The position numbers and the translations under genes are program-made. From positions 5,270,001 through 5,334,000 of the forward strand of contig NZ_CP116256.1 of assembly GCF_027947575.1 (NCBI RefSeq): a DNA stretch of 64,000 nt, in the 5' to 3' direction. Source of the DNA: Streptomyces rubrogriseus. GTDB lineage: Bacteria > Actinomycetota > Actinomycetes > Streptomycetales > Streptomycetaceae. Shown piece after piece: positions 4,324 through 59,318 of this stretch. Below the pieces are notes generated by a model, which saw only the letters and a program-made list of their open reading frames with translations, had not been told where the DNA came from and ran no database searches. Every line of letters starts with the position of its first letter. Position 1 is the stretch's first letter.

Positions 4324-4815
4324 TCAGGCCCGCAGCCACTCCGTCACGACCACCTCCCGGCCGGTCCGCAGCCGCAGCGCGAACGGACCGGCGGGCGGGG
4401 CCTCGCCGGCGAACCGGCCCATGTCGTCGGCCGTCAGCCGGGCGTGCTCCCGCGGGCCGCTCAGCACCTCGATCCCGGCCGGGCCCGGCGGCAGCAGCTG
4501 GCCGATCAGGCCCTCGGCGGTCACCTCGACGTCGACGGTCACGCCGTCCGACTGGAAGGTCAGCATCCGCGGGGGGTCCGTCTCCCCCCTGACGGGGATG
4601 CCGTCCACCAGCGAGTCGAAGGTCAGCTCGGCGACGCGGGCGTCCAGGTCGTGCAGGACGAAGGCGTCGACGGCGGTCCGCCGCAGCTCGGCCGGGACCG
4701 GGTCCAGGATCGCGGCGGCCTGCCGCAGCTCCTCCTCCAGCAGACCGTCGTGCAGCTCTGCGTCGCGCTCGTCGTGCTCGTCGTGCTCGTCGTGCTCGTC
4801 GTTGAGATCGCTCAT
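4324..4815 (-). CDS. acidic protein translationally coupled to the sigma factor (possible sigma regulator)
   Basis: 163 aa with no membrane segment or signal peptide. Residues 1-25 are highly acidic with a DEH tripeptide repeat coded by 9-bp tandem units. A helical stretch follows (about residues 25-75, LLEEELRQAAAILDPVPAELRRTAV in outline), then a beta-rich C-terminal half (MLTFQSDGVTVDVEV to VVVTEWLRA). I do not recognise the family. Its ATG overlaps the stop codon of the sigma gene (ATGA), so the two are made in step. That arrangement is typical of a sigma factor and its partner or antagonist. Function as an anti-sigma-like partner is inference from position only. Confidence 0.8.
   Translation of the reverse strand: MSDLNDEHDEHDEHDERDAELHDGLLEEELRQAAAILDPVPAELRRTAVDAFVLHDLDARVAELTFDSLVDGIPVRGETDPPRMLTFQSDGVTVDVEVTAEGLIGQLLPPGPAGIEVLSGPREHARLTADDMGRFAGEAPPAGPFALRLRTGREVVVTEWLRA
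4765..4800. repeat. four 9-bp tandem repeats inside the acidic gene
   Basis: Three perfect units GTGCTCGTC (4774-4800) follow one imperfect unit (4765-4773). On the minus strand they code for the repeated DEH tripeptide at the N-terminus, so length can change in 3-aa steps without breaking the frame. Confidence 0.85.
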
Positions 4816-5387
4816 TTCGTCCCCCGTGCCTCCAGCCGGGCCCGCAGCCGGCGCAGACAGCGCTGGCGCATCGGCCCGATGCTGCCCACCGCGATACCCA
4901 GCGCGGCGGACACCTCCTGATAACTGGGCGGTGGCGAGGAGATCAGCACCCGCAGCAACTGGCGGCACCGCTCGCCCAGTTCCTCGAACTCCTGCCACAG
5001 CAGCCGTACGCGCTCGGTCTGCGCGGCGGCCTCCTCGGAGTCGAGCACCGACTCCTCCGGCGTACGCTCCTCGCTCGGCCGGTCGAGCAGCTGTGGATCG
5101 TCGGTCGGCGTCCACCGCTTGGAGGCCTTGAGCAGCTTCAGGCACTCGTGCCGTGCCGTGCTCGCCAGCCAGGAGCCGGTCTTCTCCGGTTCCCGGATCC
5201 GCCCCAGGTGCTGGGCGAAGCGGAACCAGGCGGTCTGGTACACCTCGTGCGCGTCGGCGTCGGACAGCCCGTGCGACCTGGCCACGGACCAGACCAGCGG
5301 GCCGAGTCCGTCCACCAGTGACTTCCAGGCCGCCGCGTCCCCGTCGGCCGCCGACTGGACGAGCGCCCCGACATCTGCACGGTCCAC
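4812..5387 (-). CDS. ECF-type RNA polymerase sigma factor
   Basis: 191 aa. Region 2 is recognisable in LVWSVARSHGLSDADAHEVYQ followed by AWFRFAQHLGRIREPEKTGSW (promoter melting and -10 recognition). Region 4 is in the last third, with a helix-turn-helix at SYQEVSAALGIAVGSIGPMRQR. The length equals that of ECF sigmas. The GTG at 5387 follows a GAGGGGTGGG ribosome site; the longer open frame upstream is a shadow of the subtilase. It lies 71 bp downstream of the subtilase stop and overlaps the acidic gene by 4 nt. Upstream a GGAACC and a CGTACG on the minus strand (5441-5436 and 5422-5417) resemble ECF -35/-10 elements with slightly short spacing, hinting at autoregulation. Confidence 0.9.
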   Translation of the reverse strand: MDRADVGALVQSAADGDAAAWKSLVDGLGPLVWSVARSHGLSDADAHEVYQTAWFRFAQHLGRIREPEKTGSWLASTARHECLKLLKASKRWTPTDDPQLLDRPSEERTPEESVLDSEEAAAQTERVRLLWQEFEELGERCRQLLRVLISSPPPSYQEVSAALGIAVGSIGPMRQRCLRRLRARLEARGTK

Positions 5388-5458
5388 GGTCCCACCCCTC
5401 GTGTACGACCTGCCATCGTACGCCGTGGAGCGGATGGTTCCGACCGCCAGCAGGCCGT

Positions 5459-6892
5459 TCACGACCCGCCTTCCGACGGGTCGACGGGGACCGGGCGCCA
5501 GGTGGGCGGCAGCAGCGCGGGCACGTGCGCCCCGCGCACCTCCGCGTACTCGGTGTTGGCCGCGAGCAGTTGCCGGCCGGCCGCGCGCGGGTCGGTCTCC
5601 TTGTGCGCCGTCATGCGGGAGGCGACCAGCCCCGCGACCACGGGGGTGGCGAAGGAGGTGCCGCTCCACTGCGCGTGCCCCTCGAACATCACCTGGTCCG
5701 GCTTGGCGGGCGCCTCGCCCGGCTCGCTCAGCACCCCGTTGTGCGGCGGGTACTGACAGGTGCAGGGGTAGGTGAAGCCGAACCGGCAGTCGTCGTAGGT
5801 GGAGTGCTGGTAGACGTACGGCACGGGTGTCCCGAAGCCGGTGAGGGCGCTGGTGAGGCGCTCGCCGGGGGCGTAGGCCCGCACCCAGCCGCCGTGGTTG
5901 CTGAAGCAGGCGCCGAACTCGCCGTCGGAGCGCAGCGCCCCGATCGACAGCACCGAGTCCTCCCAGCCGGGCAGGGTGGCGTAGGCGGCGGGCCAGAAGG
6001 GCGTGGCGCTCGCGTTGTTGCCCGCGGCGGCGACCAGCAGGGTGCGCTGGTCGCGGAGTTCCTCCATGAAGGCGTGGACGCCGAGCAGGCCGTCGGTGCG
6101 GCCGTTGGAGGTGCCGGCGGAGAGGCTGAGGACCTCGGGCCAGCCACCGCGGTCGACGGCCTCGAAGAGCTTCTCGCCCAGCTCCGACTCGAGGATCGCG
6201 CCCGCGTCGTTGAGGGTGTTGCTGACGGTCACGTCGGTGTTGGGCGCGACGGCGGCGACCAGCCCGGCGATGAAGGTGCCGTGCCCGACGTACTGGCACA
6301 GGACTCCGTCGTCGTCGCACTCCCTGATCTGGGCGTCGCCCCCGGTGTGGGCCAGCAGCGGGTAGGACCGGTAGTCGTGCATGAGACCGGTGTCGACGAC
6401 GAGGACGCCGACGGCGGTCTCGGCGTCGTACGGCGTCCCGTCGGCGGCCGGGTTGGGCGGCTCGCTCAGCGGGACGGGCACGGGCTCGTCGCCGGGGCAG
6501 GCGTTGACGGCGATGGAGACGACGTGGTTGCGGCTGATCAGCCGGCGGCCCGCGCGGCCCTCCATCGTCCGCAGGGAGCGCAGCGCGTGGGCGACGGTGG
6601 GGTCGCCGTCGCGGGCACCTTCGCCGGGGTCGGCGACCTGGATGCGGGTGATGCCGGTGCGGTTGGACTCGGGGCTCGCCCGGCGCACGTGGTCCGGGGT
6701 GAGCCCGGCCATCGTGGTGAAGTGGTCGCGCACGGTGTCCTCGACGAGCCGGGCCTCCTCGCCGTCGCGGGCGAGGACGACGCCCTTCTCGTAGAAGAAC
6801 TCGGCCGAGTCGTCCGGGCCCATCGCCAGCGGGACGTCCGGCATCGAGCGCTGGATCTGGTCGAACTGCTCGCGGAATCGCTGTGGTGCCAT
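5459..6892 (-). CDS. S8 family serine peptidase (cytosolic subtilase)
   Basis: 477 aa. The catalytic triad is complete: Asp in VGVLVVDTG (about residue 166), His in YVGHGTFIAGL (about residue 202) and Ser in WSGTSFATPVVAG (about residue 413); the oxyanion Asn is in AAAGNNASATPF. There is no signal peptide, so it should act in the cytosol, unlike degradative secreted subtilisins. The first 130 residues form a helical N-terminal region with no inhibitor_I9 motif that I recognise. ATG 6892 follows GGAGGACAAGA. It heads the subtilase-sigma-acidic protein operon and faces the TPR-CHAT gene. A role in regulated proteolysis of a partner is inferred from this context. Confidence 0.92.
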   Translation of the reverse strand: MAPQRFREQFDQIQRSMPDVPLAMGPDDSAEFFYEKGVVLARDGEEARLVEDTVRDHFTTMAGLTPDHVRRASPESNRTGITRIQVADPGEGARDGDPTVAHALRSLRTMEGRAGRRLISRNHVVSIAVNACPGDEPVPVPLSEPPNPAADGTPYDAETAVGVLVVDTGLMHDYRSYPLLAHTGGDAQIRECDDDGVLCQYVGHGTFIAGLVAAVAPNTDVTVSNTLNDAGAILESELGEKLFEAVDRGGWPEVLSLSAGTSNGRTDGLLGVHAFMEELRDQRTLLVAAAGNNASATPFWPAAYATLPGWEDSVLSIGALRSDGEFGACFSNHGGWVRAYAPGERLTSALTGFGTPVPYVYQHSTYDDCRFGFTYPCTCQYPPHNGVLSEPGEAPAKPDQVMFEGHAQWSGTSFATPVVAGLVASRMTAHKETDPRAAGRQLLAANTEYAEVRGAHVPALLPPTWRPVPVDPSEGGS

Positions 6893-7024
6893 TCTTGTCC
6901 TCCACTGTGGCGGTGGCGGTGACGACGGCCGGGGCCCCGGGCGTGACCGCGGGTGTGCCCCCGGATGTGACCACGGTGGTGGCAGCGGTCGTCAATCAGA
7001 GTCCCGGGGTGGCCGATTGATACA

Positions 7025-7050
7025 GACTCGAACCTGTGTGGCGTGGTTCC
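7025..7050 (-). promoter_or_regulatory. possible ECF-type promoter of the subtilase operon
   Basis: On the minus strand GGAACC (7050-7045) is followed, 15 bp after GGAAC, by CGAGTC (7030-7025). This resembles the GGAAC-N15-17-CG layout of ECF promoters. Together with the GGAACC upstream of the sigma gene it suggests that the sigma factor could drive its own operon. Speculative. Confidence 0.3.
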
Positions 7051-7057
7051 GGAGCAC

Positions 7058-7071
7058 TACCATCCGTGGGG
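7058..7071 (+). promoter_or_regulatory. -10 element for a leaderless TPR-CHAT transcript
   Basis: TACCAT at 7058-7063 sits 7 bp upstream of the GTG at 7071, and no ribosome site precedes that GTG. This is the usual geometry of leaderless Streptomyces messages. Confidence 0.45.
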
Positions 7072-10000
7072 TGACAGCGCGAAACGACTCGGTTCTCGAC
7101 CTGCTGCCGATGGTGTTCGCCGCCCCGGGCGAAGCGCTGACGCGGGCGGAGGAGTTGCTCGGCGCCGATCCCTCGCCGCTGCACGCCTCGGTCGCCCATC
7201 AGGTGATCGGCATCTGGCAGCGGGACTTCGGCGACACCCGGCGCGCCCTGGCCCATCTGCGGCGCGCCCGCGACCTCGCCGCGCGCGCGGACTCGGCCGA
7301 GCGGGAGGCGGACGTCCTGGCCACGCTCGGGGTCGCGCTGGTGCACGCCGGGCGTACGCGGGCGGGGCTGGAGGCGTTCGAGCGGGGCGTGGCGCGCGGG
7401 AGCGGTCACACGCGCGCGCGGGTGCTGTTCCGGCGGGCGTACGTGTGGTGGGTCCTCGGCCGGCACGGGGAGGCGCTGGAGGACGTACGGCGGGCGATTC
7501 CGGTGCTCCGTCAGGCGGAGGACGTGATCTGGACGGCGCGGGCGCTGACGCTGCGGGCGACCGTGCACCTGGCGCTGGGCTCGGTGGAGCGGGCGGACGC
7601 CGACTTCACCGCGGCGGAGGCGCTGTGGGACACCACGGGCCAGGAGCACGACAAGGCCGACGCGGTGGAGAGCCGGGGTCTGGCGGCCTTCCGGTCGGGA
7701 GACGTACCGGCGGCGCTGCGGCTCCTGGACGAGGCGGAGGAGCGGTACGGGAAACTGGGCACGCCGACGTTCATGCTCACCATCCGGCGCTGCGAGGTGC
7801 TGATGGCGGCGGGACTCGCCACCGAGGCGCTGGCGGAGGCGGACGGGGCCGTGGCGGCGCTGGACGGGATCGGCGGGCAGTCCACCCGCAAGGCGGAGTT
7901 GCTGCTGGTGGCCGCGCGGGCGGCCCGGCTGGCGGACGAGCCGCAGACCGCGCTGGCGCGCGCGGCCGTCGCGGTGCGGCTGTTCGCCGGGCAGCGGCGC
8001 ACCTGGTACGAGACGCACGCCCGGCTGGTGCTGATCGAGGCTCGGGTCGCCACGGGCCGCGGATCGGGCCGGCTGGTCGCGGACGCGGCGGCGGTGGCGG
8101 AGCGGCTGGCGGCCTTCGGGGCCCCGGCCGCGCCGGAGGCTTCGTTGCTGGCGGGCCGGATCGCGCTGGACCTCGGCTGGACCGCGGACGCGGAACGGCA
8201 TCTGGCGGTGGCCGCGCGCAGCCGGCACGGCGGGCCGCCGCTGGCCCGGATGACGGGCTGGGCGGCGCAGGCGCTGCGGGCGCGGGCGGCGGGGTCGGCG
8301 CGGGGCGTCCTGGAGGCCTGCCGGCGCGGTCTGGACGTCCTCGACGATCACCGGATGACGCTGGGCGCCTCGGAGCTGCGGGCCCGGGCCACCGCGCAGG
8401 GTGCGGAGCTGGCGGCGCTGGCGCAGCGGGCGTCGCTGGTCTCGGGCGGGCCGCGGCGGCTGCTGGGCTGGAGCGAGCGCTGGCGGGCGACGGTGCTGTC
8501 GGCGCCGCCGACCCGTCCGCCGGCCGATCCGGTGCTGCTGACCGCCATGACGGCGTTCCGGGAACTCGCGGCCCGCGCGGAGGAGGCCCGCACGGACGGC
8601 GGCCGGCCCGCTCCGGCGCTGGAGCGCGAGCAGCGGCGCCTGGAGCGGGAGATCCGCTCCCGCACCCTGCACATGCGGGGCGAGGCGCCCGGCGACGGCG
8701 ACCGGTTCGACGTGGGGCGGCTGCTGCGGCGGCTGGGCGACGAGGTGCGGCTGGTGGAGCTGGCGGTGCTCGACGGGCGCGTGCACGTGCTGCTGTGCGG
8801 GCAGGGCAGGGTACGGCGCTTCGAGGCCGGGTTGCTGGCCGAGGCGGAGGTGGAGGCGGAGCACGTGCAGGCCGGGTTGCGGCGGCTGGCGCATCCGGGT
8901 GGGGAGGCGCGGCTGCCGCTGGTGGAGGCGGCGGGCGCGCGCCTCCAGCGGTTGCTGCTGGGGCCCGCCGCGGCCCACCTCGGCTCGGGTCCGGTCGTCG
9001 TGGTCCCGCCGGGCCGGCTGCACCGGGTGCCGTGGGCGCTGCTGCCGGTGCTGCGGGACCGCGTCCTCAGCGTGTCGCCGTCGGCGAGCAGTTGGCTGCG
9101 CGCGAGGGACACCGCTCCCCGCCCGGTGGTCGCCAGGTCCTGGTCCGCGGCCCCGGCCTGGCGAGCGGCGGCGCCGAGGTGCCGGAACTCGCCGAGCGGT
9201 ACGCGGGGCGGGGCCACCGGGGAGGGACGGGGCGGGGAGCCCGCCGCCCGGGCTCCGGACCGGGGCGCGCCGACTGCCACCGGGGGGCGGACGGGAGCAC
9301 GGTGGTCCCGCGGAGCCTGCCGAAACGCCTTCAGCGCCGCCCCCGGGCGAGCGCCGCCCGGGTGACCACGGCGAACCGGCCGGGCCGCACCAAGTACCGA
9401 CACAGGCCGCACCGGACCGCGGTGAGCACGGCGAACCCGCCGGGCCGCACCGTGTACCGGCATCGGGCGGACCGGGTCGCGGGGAGCACGCACGGGCGGC
9501 CGGTACGCCTTCGCTGCCGTCGCAGGCCGCGCCGGACCGCGGCGAACACGCACCGTCGCCCGGTACGGGCCGAGTGCCGTCGCAGGGCGGGCCCCACCGC
9601 GGCGAACGCGGGCGGCCCGCCGGGGCGCTCGCGGTGCCGCCGCGAGGTGGGTGGGAGCGTGGCGGACAGGGGGAGCCGGTCGCGGCGGACGGCGGTGCGA
9701 GACGGGCTTCACTGGCTGTCGACGGCGTAGGCGTCGGCGTCGGCGGGGAGGGCGTCGGCCGGGAGGTCGTCGGTGGGGAGGCCGACGCCGCCCGGCAGGC
9801 GCGACCCGGCGCCCCCGGGGTCGACGCCGCCGTGCGGGGCCGAACCGTCGTACTGGAGGGCGACGACGCACGGGTGCCCCGCGTGTTGCGGGAACTGGAC
9901 GGGGCCGCGTTGGCGCACATCGCGGCGCACGGGACCTTCCGCGCGGACAGTCCGTTGTTCTCGTCGCTGCGGATGGCCGACGGGCCGCTCATCGTGCACG

Positions 10001-10314
10001 ACTTCGAGCGGCTCGACCGCAGCCCGTACCGGATCATCCTGCCCTGCTGCGACACCGCGCGCTTCGCTTCGGTCGGCGCCGACGAGTTGCTCGGCCTGGT
10101 CACCGCGCTGCTGCCGCTGGGCACGGCCGGGGTGGTGGCGTGCACCGCGCCGGTCAACGACGCCGCGGTGGTGCCCCTGATGCTCGCGCTGCACAAGGGG
10201 CTGGAGGCCGGCCTGTCCCTGGCGGAGGCGCTGCGCGACGCGCGGGCCGCGCTGCCGGGCGACGCGGTGCACCAGGCGACGGGGTGGGCCTTCACGGCGT
10301 TCGGGGCGGCCTGA
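7071..10314 (+). pseudogene. TPR-CHAT (caspase-like) protein, reading frame shifted twice
   Basis: About 1,080 codons in three frames. The first frame (GTG 7071 to about 9117) gives some 680 residues of tetratricopeptide-like helices (repeated ADARLATLG/ALAHLRRARDLA-type units) and the start of a CHAT peptidase domain (PPGRLHRVPWALLP, VSPSASSW). Continuity then needs one added base in the C run at 9117-9120 (to read GGRQVLVRGPGLASGGAEVPE) and another near 9278-9284 to enter the last frame. That frame carries five 20-residue repeats and the catalytic His (AHIAAHGTF) and Cys (LPCCDTARF). The family acts as caspase-like proteases in regulated and conflict systems. Whether the breaks are real or sequencing errors is undecided; if real, the catalytic part is not made in frame. 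Confidence 0.8.
9361..9660. repeat. five 60-bp tandem repeats inside the CHAT domain
   Basis: Five imperfect 60-bp units (9361, 9421, 9481, 9541, 9601) each code for 20 residues of the form GEHGEPAGPHRVPSQAAPDR; degenerate units flank them. They lie between the first CHAT strand and the His loop, i.e. within the peptidase fold rather than between domains. Confidence 0.85.
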
Positions 10315-10340
10315 GCCCGCCCCGGTACCCGGCCGCCGGG

Positions 10341-12171
10341 TCAGGCGGGTTGGGGCTCGGGCAGTTCCATGAGCCACGGCAGGGCGCCGCGGTCGCCCGC
10401 ACCGAGGCGGGTGTAGGCGCCGTAGAGGTGGTTGCCGACGGTGCGGACGGAGAGGGTCAGCCGCTCCGCGATCTGCCGGTTGCTCAGGCCCGCGGCGGCG
10501 AGCGTGACGATCTGCCGCTGCCGGGCGGTGAGTTCGCCGAGCACCAGTCCGGACAGCGCGGGGGTGCGGGCGCCCTGGCAGCGTCGGACGAGGGCGGCGG
10601 CCCGGGTCCGCGCGGTGCGGGCGGCCCGCGGGTCGCGGTGGACGGGGACCGCCTGGGCGCTCGCCTCGGCCGCGAACAACAGGAATCCGCGCCGCTCCAA
10701 CTCGTCGGCGACCCGGTCGAGCGCGGGCCCGTCCTCGCGCGCGAGGGCGTCGGCGTGCGCGGCGAAGACGCCGGTCAGCCGGCCGACCGCGCGCTGGGGC
10801 GCGCCGAGCCGGACGGCGTCGTACGGGTCGACCCGGCCGGCCGTCCGGACCGCCTCGTCGAGGTCGCCGCGCGCGGCGGCGGCCCAGGCGACGGCGGCCT
10901 CCTGGCCGCCCCGCGTCCCGTCGCCCGACTGCGCGGTGGCCAGGGCGAGTTCGGTACGGCAGTCCGGGTCGTCGGGGTGGGTCCGCAGGCCCTCGCGGGC
11001 CCAGGCCGCGGCGTCGCGCAGTCCCCCGCCCAACCGGGCGAACCGGGCCCGCAGCGCGGCGTATCCGGCCAGCAGCGGCACCCTTCGGCGGCCAGCCACT
11101 CCCCACGGGCGCCTCGACCGGCCGTACGTCGGCCTGCTCGATGCGCAGGGCGAGGGCGGCCCGCTCCGCCTCCAGGGCGGGACCGGTCCGGTCCGGGGTG
11201 CGGACGGCCAGGCGCCGGGCCCGCAGCCGGCCCGCGGCGGCGCGCAGCACCGGGCCGTGCAGGGGGTGCGCGAGGCGCCCGGCGCCGTGGTCGTCGACGG
11301 TGACCAGGCCTTCGGCCTCCAGGTTCTCCAGGATCCGTACGTCGAGCGCGTCCGGGTTCGGATCCAGGTCCAGGGGCAGGGGCTCGGCGAAGGCGAGCCG
11401 TTCGAGGGTCTCCCGCTCCTCGGTGCGGGGGCGGTCGAGTACCTGGGCGGTGCGCTCGCGGACCGCCGGGGTGATCGGCACCGGTCCGCGCCACGCCCAC
11501 TGGTCCGTGTCCGGCACCGGCACGAGCGAGCCGTTCTCGCGGACGGCGGTCAGCAGTTGGCGCAGCAGCCGCAGGTCTCCCCGGCACAGGCGGTGCAACC
11601 GGTCGACGGTGAGCGGCTCCAGGACGGTGTCCGCGCCGGCCGCGAGCAGTTCGGCGGTCTCCTCGCGGGGCAGCGGTTCCAGGGCGAGGCGCGGCAGCAG
11701 CTCACCGGACCACAGCCGGGACACGGCGTCCGGTACGGAGGTGCCGTCGGTGGCGACGACCAGGAGGCGGGTACGGCCGTGCACGGCGAGCTGGTGCACG
11801 AGGGCGGCCGAGGCGGCGTCGAGCAGGTGCGCGTCGTCGACCAGCAGCAGCCGTACGCCGGACAGGAGGTGTACCGCGCGGTGCAGGGTGACTCCCTCGG
11901 GCAGCAGGTGGGCGAAGGGCGCGAAGGGGACGTCCCGGGTCTCGGGCGTCCCGGCGGCGCGGGCGCAGTCGGTGCCGCGCACGGCCTCCGTGACCAGCCT
12001 GGTCTTGCCCGCGCCCGCCGGGCCCGTCACCACGAGGCCGCCCCGTCCGGCGGCCACGGACCCGCGCACCAGCTCCAGTTCGTCCGCCCGCCCGGTGAAC
12101 GGCCAGGGGGTCTCCAGCCTCTTCGCGTCCCGCAGAGAAGTCGTCACGGCAACATGAGTCGGCATACTCAT
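10341..12171 (-). pseudogene. LuxR-family regulator with AAA ATPase domain, frame shifted
   Basis: An LAL-like regulator of about 610 residues. The N-terminal half has a Walker A GPAGAGKTRL (about residue 48) and a Walker B-like LLLVDDAHLLDAAS. The C-terminus has a LuxR helix-turn-helix, LTARQRQIVTLAAAGLSNRQ then IAERLTLSVRTVGNHLYG. Between 11082 and 11102 the frame changes twice within about 20 bp (VEAPVG, then EWLAAEG, then VPLLAGYAALR lie in three frames); one added G in each of two G runs restores a continuous protein. ATG 12171 is chosen. The gene is convergent with CHAT (26 bp between stops) and may regulate that locus. Likely an assembly error rather than decay, because both halves are well preserved. 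Confidence 0.75.
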
Positions 12172-12237: not shown

Positions 12238-13323
12238 ATGCCCATGACCGCACGCTACTGCTCGCTCGAGCGGCAGCCTGCCCCGGTGCTTCCGCCGGGG
12301 TTGGCCGTCGAGCGCGTCGCCGCGCTCGTCGGCGGGCAGCGGATGTGGGTCAACGCCACCGTGCTGCACTACTGCTTCCTCGGCGGCGACACCGACGCCT
12401 CGGTGGTCCCGATGCCGGGCACCGGACGGCCGCGGCGGGGTTCTTGGGCGGGGACCGAGGAGCAGCGGGACGTGGTGCGCGACTGCTTCCGGGAGTGGCG
12501 CGACCTGGGCATCGGACTCGGCCTCGAAGAGGTCCGCGACCGGTCGGAGGCGGAGCTGCGCATCGGCTTCCAGCCCGGCGACGGGTCCTGGTCGGCGGTG
12601 GGCAAGGACGCGCTCGGGGTCGGTCTGAACGACCGGACGATGAACTTCGGCTGGGACCTGACCGCGCCGGGCGAGCGGGCGACGGCCCTGCACCAGATCG
12701 GGCACGCGCTCGGCATGCTGCACGAGCACCAGAGCCCGTTCGCGGGCATCCTCTGGGACGACGAGGCCGTCTACGCCGAGCTGGCGGGCCCGCCCAACCA
12801 CTGGAGCCGGGAGCGGACCTTCCACAACATCCTGCGCAAGCTCGACGGCGACGAGGCCAACGGCCCGGTCTGGGACCCGCAGTCGATCATGGAGTACCCG
12901 TTCTCCTCGGGCCTGATACTGGAGCCCGAGCACTACCGTTCCGGCCTGCGCCCGCCCGGTACGCTCTCCGCCGCCGACAAGGAGTTCGCCCTGCGCTGGT
13001 ACCCGCCCACCGGCCGGCCCGGTCCGCTGGTGCCGTTCCGCTCGGTGCCGCTGGGTCTCGGGCCCGGCGAGCAGGCCGACTTCCGCGTGGATCCGCCGGA
13101 GACCCGCGAGTACACCGTGGGCACCTTCGGTGACAGCGACGCCGTCGTCGTCGTCTTCGAGGAGCGGGACGGTGTGCCCCGCTACTTCGCCGGACAGGAC
13201 GACGGAGGAACCCCGCACAACGCCACGATCAGGGCCCGTTTCGTCAAGGGCCGCCGCTATGTCGTCCGGGTGCGCCTGTACTCCTCGTGGGGTGCGGGCG
13301 AGACGGCGGTCATGTACTGGTGA
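12238..13323 (+). CDS. metzincin-like (astacin/serralysin-type) metalloprotease homologue with HQxxH
   Basis: 361 aa, no signal peptide. The zinc motif reads HQIGHALGMLHEHQSPF, matching HExxHxxGxxH except that the catalytic Glu is Gln (CAG codon at about 12694). A Met-turn follows (SIMEYPFSSG), and the C-terminal region (from about residue 265) is beta-rich, ending VVRVRLYSSWG. The three zinc-binding His residues are intact, so metal binding is likely, but loss of the general base predicts weak or no peptidase activity. Two ATGs (12238, 12244) are equally usable. It is divergent from the LuxR gene. Substrate and role unknown. Confidence 0.8.
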   Translation: MPMTARYCSLERQPAPVLPPGLAVERVAALVGGQRMWVNATVLHYCFLGGDTDASVVPMPGTGRPRRGSWAGTEEQRDVVRDCFREWRDLGIGLGLEEVRDRSEAELRIGFQPGDGSWSAVGKDALGVGLNDRTMNFGWDLTAPGERATALHQIGHALGMLHEHQSPFAGILWDDEAVYAELAGPPNHWSRERTFHNILRKLDGDEANGPVWDPQSIMEYPFSSGLILEPEHYRSGLRPPGTLSAADKEFALRWYPPTGRPGPLVPFRSVPLGLGPGEQADFRVDPPETREYTVGTFGDSDAVVVVFEERDGVPRYFAGQDDGGTPHNATIRARFVKGRRYVVRVRLYSSWGAGETAVMYW

Positions 13324-14314: not shown

Positions 14315-14322
14315 CGCAACCG

Positions 14323-14396
<74 letters not shown>

Positions 14397-38559: not shown

Positions 38560-38566
38560 CACACCG

Positions 38567-38640
<74 letters not shown>

Positions 38641-59226: not shown

Positions 59227-59244
59227 ATCAACGACTGTCTCCAG

Positions 59245-59318
<74 letters not shown>

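Follow-up and report, generated by a model that had tools for sequence, protein, structure and literature searches.

Coupling of a protease to an extracytoplasmic function (ECF) sigma factor has precedents. One is Craspase (PMC10028731, in excerpt). For the sigma factor group ECF54, the relevant passages of PMC8999054, which cite Casas-Pastor 2021 and Huang 2015, describe a genomic context with conserved carboxypeptidase, subtilase and CHAT domains and propose proteolytic control without an anti-sigma factor. Part of PMC8195603 describes neighbourhoods of EACC2 caspases with ECF sigma and tetratricopeptide repeat (TPR) genes, for which a path from sensing through proteolysis to transcription was proposed. 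In Streptomyces coelicolor, sections of several papers touch on the absR locus: PMC9628970 and PMC9705864 treat SCO6993 and SCO6992, PMC9739823 lists SCO6996 as a sigma factor, and PMC2936110 describes the protease gene SCO6995 as AdpA-dependent and reports (data not shown there) that its forced expression inhibits antibiotic production. The portions consulted of PMC7159879, PMC8103513 and PMC6295645 hold nothing on the module. In this study, we examined a 64,000-nucleotide stretch of Streptomyces rubrogriseus (contig NZ_CP116256.1, positions 5,270,001 to 5,334,000; the window), part of a single-contig 8.41-Mb genome, for which an earlier note had proposed a protease-controlled sigma module. 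The block carries genes for an ECF-type sigma factor, an acidic 163-residue protein (p163), an S8 protease (a subtilase) and a TPR-CHAT protein. Judged from sequence, these four families are a genuine, widespread and co-inherited sigma module of actinobacteria, whose members are for the most part retained together or lost together, with sigma and p163 as its transcriptional half and CHAT, usually with S8, as its proteolytic half.

The families were followed in a class sample (197 genomes, 90 genera) and a phylum sample overlapping it (296 genomes, 198 genera). As a single query p163 matched 59 of the class genomes, and its profile 72, from 36 genera; in the phylum sample it was found in 39 genomes of 27 genera, the weakest match covering the C-terminal sandwich only. 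Sixty of the 63 matches other than the query's own were fetched, and one locus without a p163 hidden Markov model match (L089) was set aside. In 57 of the remaining 59 class loci, sigma lies directly upstream of p163. Both S8 and CHAT are near p163 in 34 (33 with an adjacent sigma; L044 without), CHAT alone in 5, S8 alone in 2 and neither in 18, three of these on contigs below 5 kb. One CHAT-only locus (L046) is doubtful, as it probably holds a different TPR protein; the CHAT ortholog of that genome is on another contig. Twenty further loci, fetched as regions from among 47 phylum-sample matches and mostly outside the class, contain sigma in 17 cases, with all four families in 11, CHAT without S8 in one, sigma and p163 only in five and p163 alone in three. 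In the best 80 of 226 relatives (79 Streptomyces and one titled Kitasatospora; named loci below), sigma is present in all, S8 in 78 and CHAT in 75; four of the five loci without CHAT are cut by a contig end, and the fifth (L213) looks like a real deletion. Co-conservation outside close relatives, on which the earlier note had beforehand staked its proposal, was therefore found for the four core genes. The five-gene block it had drawn was not, the LuxR-type regulator AbsR2 being near only 59 of the 80 named loci. AbsR2 was rejected as a core member because it was not found near the other 21 (some cut by contig ends); it is a Streptomyces neighbour.

Presence and loss follow the same pattern. 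At the chosen cut-offs, p163 was found in 72 class genomes, CHAT in 69, S8 in 64 and sigma in 71; all four families occur together in 63 genomes, none in 122 and a partial set in 12. Some of the partial genomes are threshold or contig effects: weak sigma matches stand beside p163 in G037, G071, G099 and G189, and the sigma match in G084 is incomplete, cut, we would guess, by a contig end. Five genomes (G110, G121, G171, G180, G189) have CHAT and no S8, and S8 never occurs without CHAT at these cut-offs; CHAT therefore looks like the more central protease, and S8 would be the more dispensable one. In Streptomyces, where the genes are linked, a single deletion can take out the whole set. In the taxonomic family f19 they are not all linked: of its 15 class-sample genomes, 4 have 1.8-4.7 Mb between p163 and CHAT and 11 have them on different contigs, and CHAT adjoins S8 in 13. 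Across 22 f19 genomes (S8 and sigma data cover those 15, the other seven having p163 and CHAT data only), 17 hold both p163 and CHAT, four neither, and one, which is 75% complete, p163 only; within genus g65 both are present in two genomes and neither in three. Because these unlinked loci are kept or lost together, a shared function can be argued.

The joint retention and loss of the set suggests a protease-controlled switch without CRISPR. The form that we favour, tentatively and at a little under an even chance, is one in which p163 would restrain sigma and TPR-CHAT, usually with S8, would relieve the restraint. The N-terminal helices of p163 would bind sigma and hold it off RNA polymerase (RNAP), the immunoglobulin (Ig)-like C-terminal sandwich serving as a regulatory handle. 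The TPR part of TPR-CHAT would read a signal, and its caspase-like protease would cut or remodel p163, freeing sigma; the intracellular subtilase would usually assist, as second cutter or in clearance. What the sequences show is that the four families exist, that they are linked, that they are present or lost jointly and that the catalytic residues are intact in relatives; the binding of p163 to sigma, the direction of control, the cleavage and the signal are inferred. The same gene content, which equals that of the ECF54 proposal, could also be read as an extension of that proposal, with the proteases destroying sigma itself and p163 acting as a presenting adaptor or chaperone rather than an anti-sigma factor. 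We consider this unlikely: no pair is as constant as sigma and p163 (57 of 59 class loci), and although an adaptor would perhaps be found with the protease, p163 in f19 stays with sigma and not with S8 and CHAT.

Features of p163 and sigma were compared with this p163-gated switch. p163 has helices at residues 16-37 and 42-53, followed by an Ig-like beta sandwich at about 60-160. The sandwich is related to CarboxypepD_reg, matches of this kind being found in 27 of 71 homologues at E ≤ 0.01. A Foldseek search returned no match to p163 below E 0.001, and the VIA list is little test of the N-terminal helices. Against solved structures the p163 profile had weak matches only (best NOMO2 at 0.0046), and none of its six weak PDB matches up to E 1 is Csx30-named. 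Region 4 of sigma carries GSIGP.R.RCL, typical of its relatives. The earlier note had suggested structure prediction of sigma with the 163-residue protein. We considered a composite model of sigma and p163 of L072 as one chain, with one stop read through (predicted local distance difference test 88.5, with the p163 helices at 91-95; predicted template modelling score 0.70). Both sigma domains of the composite superpose jointly on the sigmas of CnrH, SigW and RpoE-NepR anti-sigma complexes and do not superpose jointly on RNAP-bound sigmaH. The model is thus compatible with a compact, anti-sigma-bound-like shape of sigma, as the anti-sigma reading predicts; it agrees with binding, but is uncontrolled and tethered. 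An apparent p163-sigma fusion in L044 was rejected as the shadow of an out-of-frame stretch.

Other sigma and anti-sigma genes were also seen. The window genome holds a second, more distant sigma relative (G000:C1:2528218-2528688, E 2.4e-26), and most sampled genomes of the same genus have relatives of similar score. Among the neighbour proteins, three matched RskA_C, all beside other sigma genes. Each of these RskA-type anti-sigma genes (L058:14715-15422, L066:6057-6764, L138:5397-6044) immediately follows a second sigma gene that lies within a few kb of the module.

Several observations weigh against p163 restraining sigma. The published ECF54 proposal, in the part of PMC8999054 concerned, has no anti-sigma factor, and none of the 71 p163 homologues matched an anti-sigma Pfam family, which still allows for a new kind. 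The composite is a tethered single chain from another genome, without a control or predicted aligned error, and the tether forces proximity. The composite sigma is also matched by SigG1, whose structure includes its own C-terminal domain (7qh5, 143 residues, 4.5 Å); a closed shape may be modelled for free ECF sigmas too; and with some sigmas from anti-sigma complexes (1or7, 6in7) the fit is confined to sigma2. At the cut-offs used, G086 has sigma and p163 with neither protease, and G092 and G182 have a close sigma relative but none of p163, S8 and CHAT. Three of the 20 more distant loci (L122, L129, L134) showed no sigma beside p163, nor the other families, and the pairwise Fisher tests across families are extreme but ignore phylogeny. 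Finally, S8 and p163 adjoin without an adjacent sigma in L044 and L074, both of whose genomes hold sigma elsewhere. The latter loci would fit p163 being mainly a partner of S8, as inhibitor or substrate, with a secondary link to sigma. This we regard as quite improbable, given that the five genomes listed above, in which no S8 passed the cut-off, hold sigma (weak in G189), p163 and CHAT, and given that p163 in f19 sits with sigma, far from S8.

The upstream sequences bear on what sigma may control. GGAACC occurs 38 times in the window (both strands), with 5 copies in the 7.85-kb block against about 4.7 expected; the word count is therefore at chance, and GGAACC as a shared autoregulation signal was rejected on this ground. 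Before sigma there is an inverted repeat, GTACGA-N7-TCGTAC. Leaving aside two of the 80 named loci that are cut short, the repeat is perfect in 25 of the other 78 and has no more than one mismatch in 64, a level reached by none of 313 control stretches. It has at most two mismatches in 73 named loci, and 36 of these carry the adjoining GGAAC at the same fixed offset. A regulated ECF-like promoter before sigma is thus plausible. Before S8, GGAAC is at a fixed offset in 20 of the 57 sequences holding CTGTATCA (68 examined, window included), with a different downstream element, and the sigma and S8 sites share no -10. Genome-wide, the inverted repeat is at two places (control 1), with only one perfect copy besides that before sigma, and GGAAC-N13-15-GCGTACGA at five (control 0). 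Of the GGAACC-based autoregulation suggested in the earlier note, the positional conservation before sigma stands, but with the word at chance, a weaker S8 copy and an unshared -10 the evidence is modest. 

The fixed GGAAC before S8, and the fact that S8 and CHAT can stand as a pair away from sigma and p163, would also fit proteases that are outputs, whereby a p163-gated sigma turns on S8 and CHAT effectors that cut many proteins in a conflict- or cell-death-like response. The differing -10 parts and the few PADLOC matches among 132 neighbour proteins speak against this, and we think it rather improbable. An anti-phage island was rejected: among the 132 neighbour proteins (23 loci), five PADLOC families had one or two members each at E ≤ 1e-10. 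The neighbour Pfam families listed (25 of 132) are mostly housekeeping, and the PADLOC matches of the block proteins themselves are weak and were judged generic.

Regarding the proteases, the Asp, His, Ser and oxyanion Asn of S8, which we take to have these roles, are invariant in 21 aligned sequences, the window's included. For the signal-less S8 protease with intact triad described in the earlier note, the PF00082 match and the invariant residues hold; no signal sequence was evident on inspection by eye, made without a predictor run. S8 resembles solved intracellular subtilisins, and other subtilisins match about equally well. For TPR-CHAT, the only CHAT-domain chains among the PDB matches listed are named 'CHAT domain protein', presumably the Craspase entries, and the relation to the Craspase TPR-CHAT drawn in the note agrees with this. 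Its linker contains four degenerate tandem 60-nt units (9395-9634); open reading frame (ORF) length differs among relatives, with the variation perhaps arising in the linker.

Running from 13.3 kb to 4.3 kb, the window has AbsR1-type, AbsR2-type, TPR-CHAT, S8, ECF sigma and p163 genes (Table 1). S8, sigma and p163 form an operon-like run divergent from TPR-CHAT. The sigma gene and the coupled acidic protein are present as the note had claimed: the sigma stop and p163 start overlap as ATGA, and a four-base overlap is kept in 78 of the 80 named relatives (ATGA 30, GTGA 48).

Table 1. Features of the block and its neighbours, in window positions
Feature	Position	Strand	Basis or remark
p163, 163-aa acidic protein	4324-4815	-	Isoelectric point 4.35; CarboxypepD_reg (PF13620) relative
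ECF-type sigma factor of 191 aa with a GTG start	4812-5387	-	Overlaps p163 by ATGA
Conserved promoter/operator-like element before sigma	5403-5441	-	GGAACC, then inverted repeat at 5403-5421
S8 protease, 477 aa, like intracellular subtilisins	5459-6892	-	PF00082 match; catalytic residues intact
TPR-CHAT gene, frame broken in this genome	7071-10314	+	TPR 7071 to ~9125, linker, CHAT His/Cys part to 10314
AbsR2-type LuxR-AAA regulator, split near 11090	10341-12171	-	NCBIfam AbsR2 match; Streptomyces neighbour, non-core
AbsR1 (SCO6992-type) neighbour	12238-13323	+	Weak metalloprotease match; non-core; named from its place beside AbsR2 and from a paper

Two genes described in the note, those for TPR-CHAT and the LuxR-AAA regulator, are split here. 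TPR-CHAT has both its parts, but they lie in different frames, the TPR part in one as far as about 9125 and the CHAT part, with the His/Cys pair, in another whose ORF ends at 10314; the LuxR-AAA regulator matches AbsR2, but its halves are also in different frames. In an alignment with six close relatives, the first break in CHAT and that in AbsR2 coincide with single-base losses in or beside C-runs, with a further CHAT shift near 9215 within a variable stretch. In 69 of 75 named relatives a single ORF covers almost all of the CHAT model (at least four of the other six are cut by a contig end), and AbsR2 is one ORF in 58 of 59. Sequencing error and a recent lesion are both possible for these breaks. 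As the CHAT gene reads as broken, either the switch would be impaired in this genome or the sequence is wrong. Elsewhere in the window, three tRNA-Pro(GGG) genes (14322-14396, 38566-38640, 59244-59318) are identical over 75 of 75 bases, possibly marks of duplication or integration.

Compared with Craspase/CASP (Cas7-11, the TPR-CHAT protein Csx29, Csx30, CASP-sigma), the module shares a TPR-CHAT protease, a partner protein and an ECF sigma, with CHAT domains related in sequence. It differs by the added subtilase and by p163 (163 aa) being far smaller than Csx30 (565 aa in the PMC10028731 excerpt). The absence of CRISPR parts anticipated by the note was borne out within the regions searched, which did not extend to the rest of the genome: there was no Cas7-11/gRAMP in the block genes, ten further window genes or the PADLOC families of the 132 neighbour proteins in relatives, and the close direct repeats of window 1-25000 include no CRISPR-like array. 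It is possible, though we lean against it, that p163 is the first of a new class of soluble anti-sigma factors, with two sigma-binding helices and an Ig-like domain, cut by TPR-CHAT. The switch would then be widespread and CRISPR-free, and the Craspase sigma arm would be a specialised relative of it or a parallel to it. If true, a caspase-like protease cutting a sigma partner would be a common form of actinobacterial transcription control, not a CRISPR curiosity. Anti-sigmas of the CnrY/RsiW type are membrane-tied. The modelled sigma would resemble those of CnrH-CnrY and SigW-RsiW in its compact anti-sigma-bound shape, and p163 has an Ig-like domain instead of the membrane tie. EACC2 neighbourhoods likewise combine a protease of caspase type with an ECF sigma and a TPR protein, but EACC2 and DUF1822 proteins stand there in place of a fused TPR-CHAT, and the part of PMC8195603 concerned does not mention p163 or a subtilase.

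Judged by gene context against the description in PMC8999054 (in part), the module is like ECF54 in having an ECF sigma with CHAT, a subtilase and a carboxypeptidase-type protein, and, by the p163 homologues searched (0 of 71), in having no recognisable anti-sigma family beside sigma; it differs in that p163 is read here as a restraint, of which that account has none. The ECF54 'carboxypeptidase' would most simply be p163, which is CarboxypepD_reg-like and in which no enzyme domain was found. Proteolytic control in this context has thus already been published; the identity of p163, the co-loss evidence and the link to absR are new relative to the literature searched, and the ECF54 proposal would, if the switch is real, gain named partners. 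In the absR locus of S. coelicolor (SCO6992-SCO6996), the AbsR2 match and the gene order fit SCO6995, named a 'putative intracellular serine protease', and SCO6996 as sigma in the excerpts available. By order and names alone, SCO6994-SCO6997 would correspond to CHAT, S8, sigma and p163 and, if so and if the proposed switch is real, this antibiotic locus would gain a concrete regulatory circuit.

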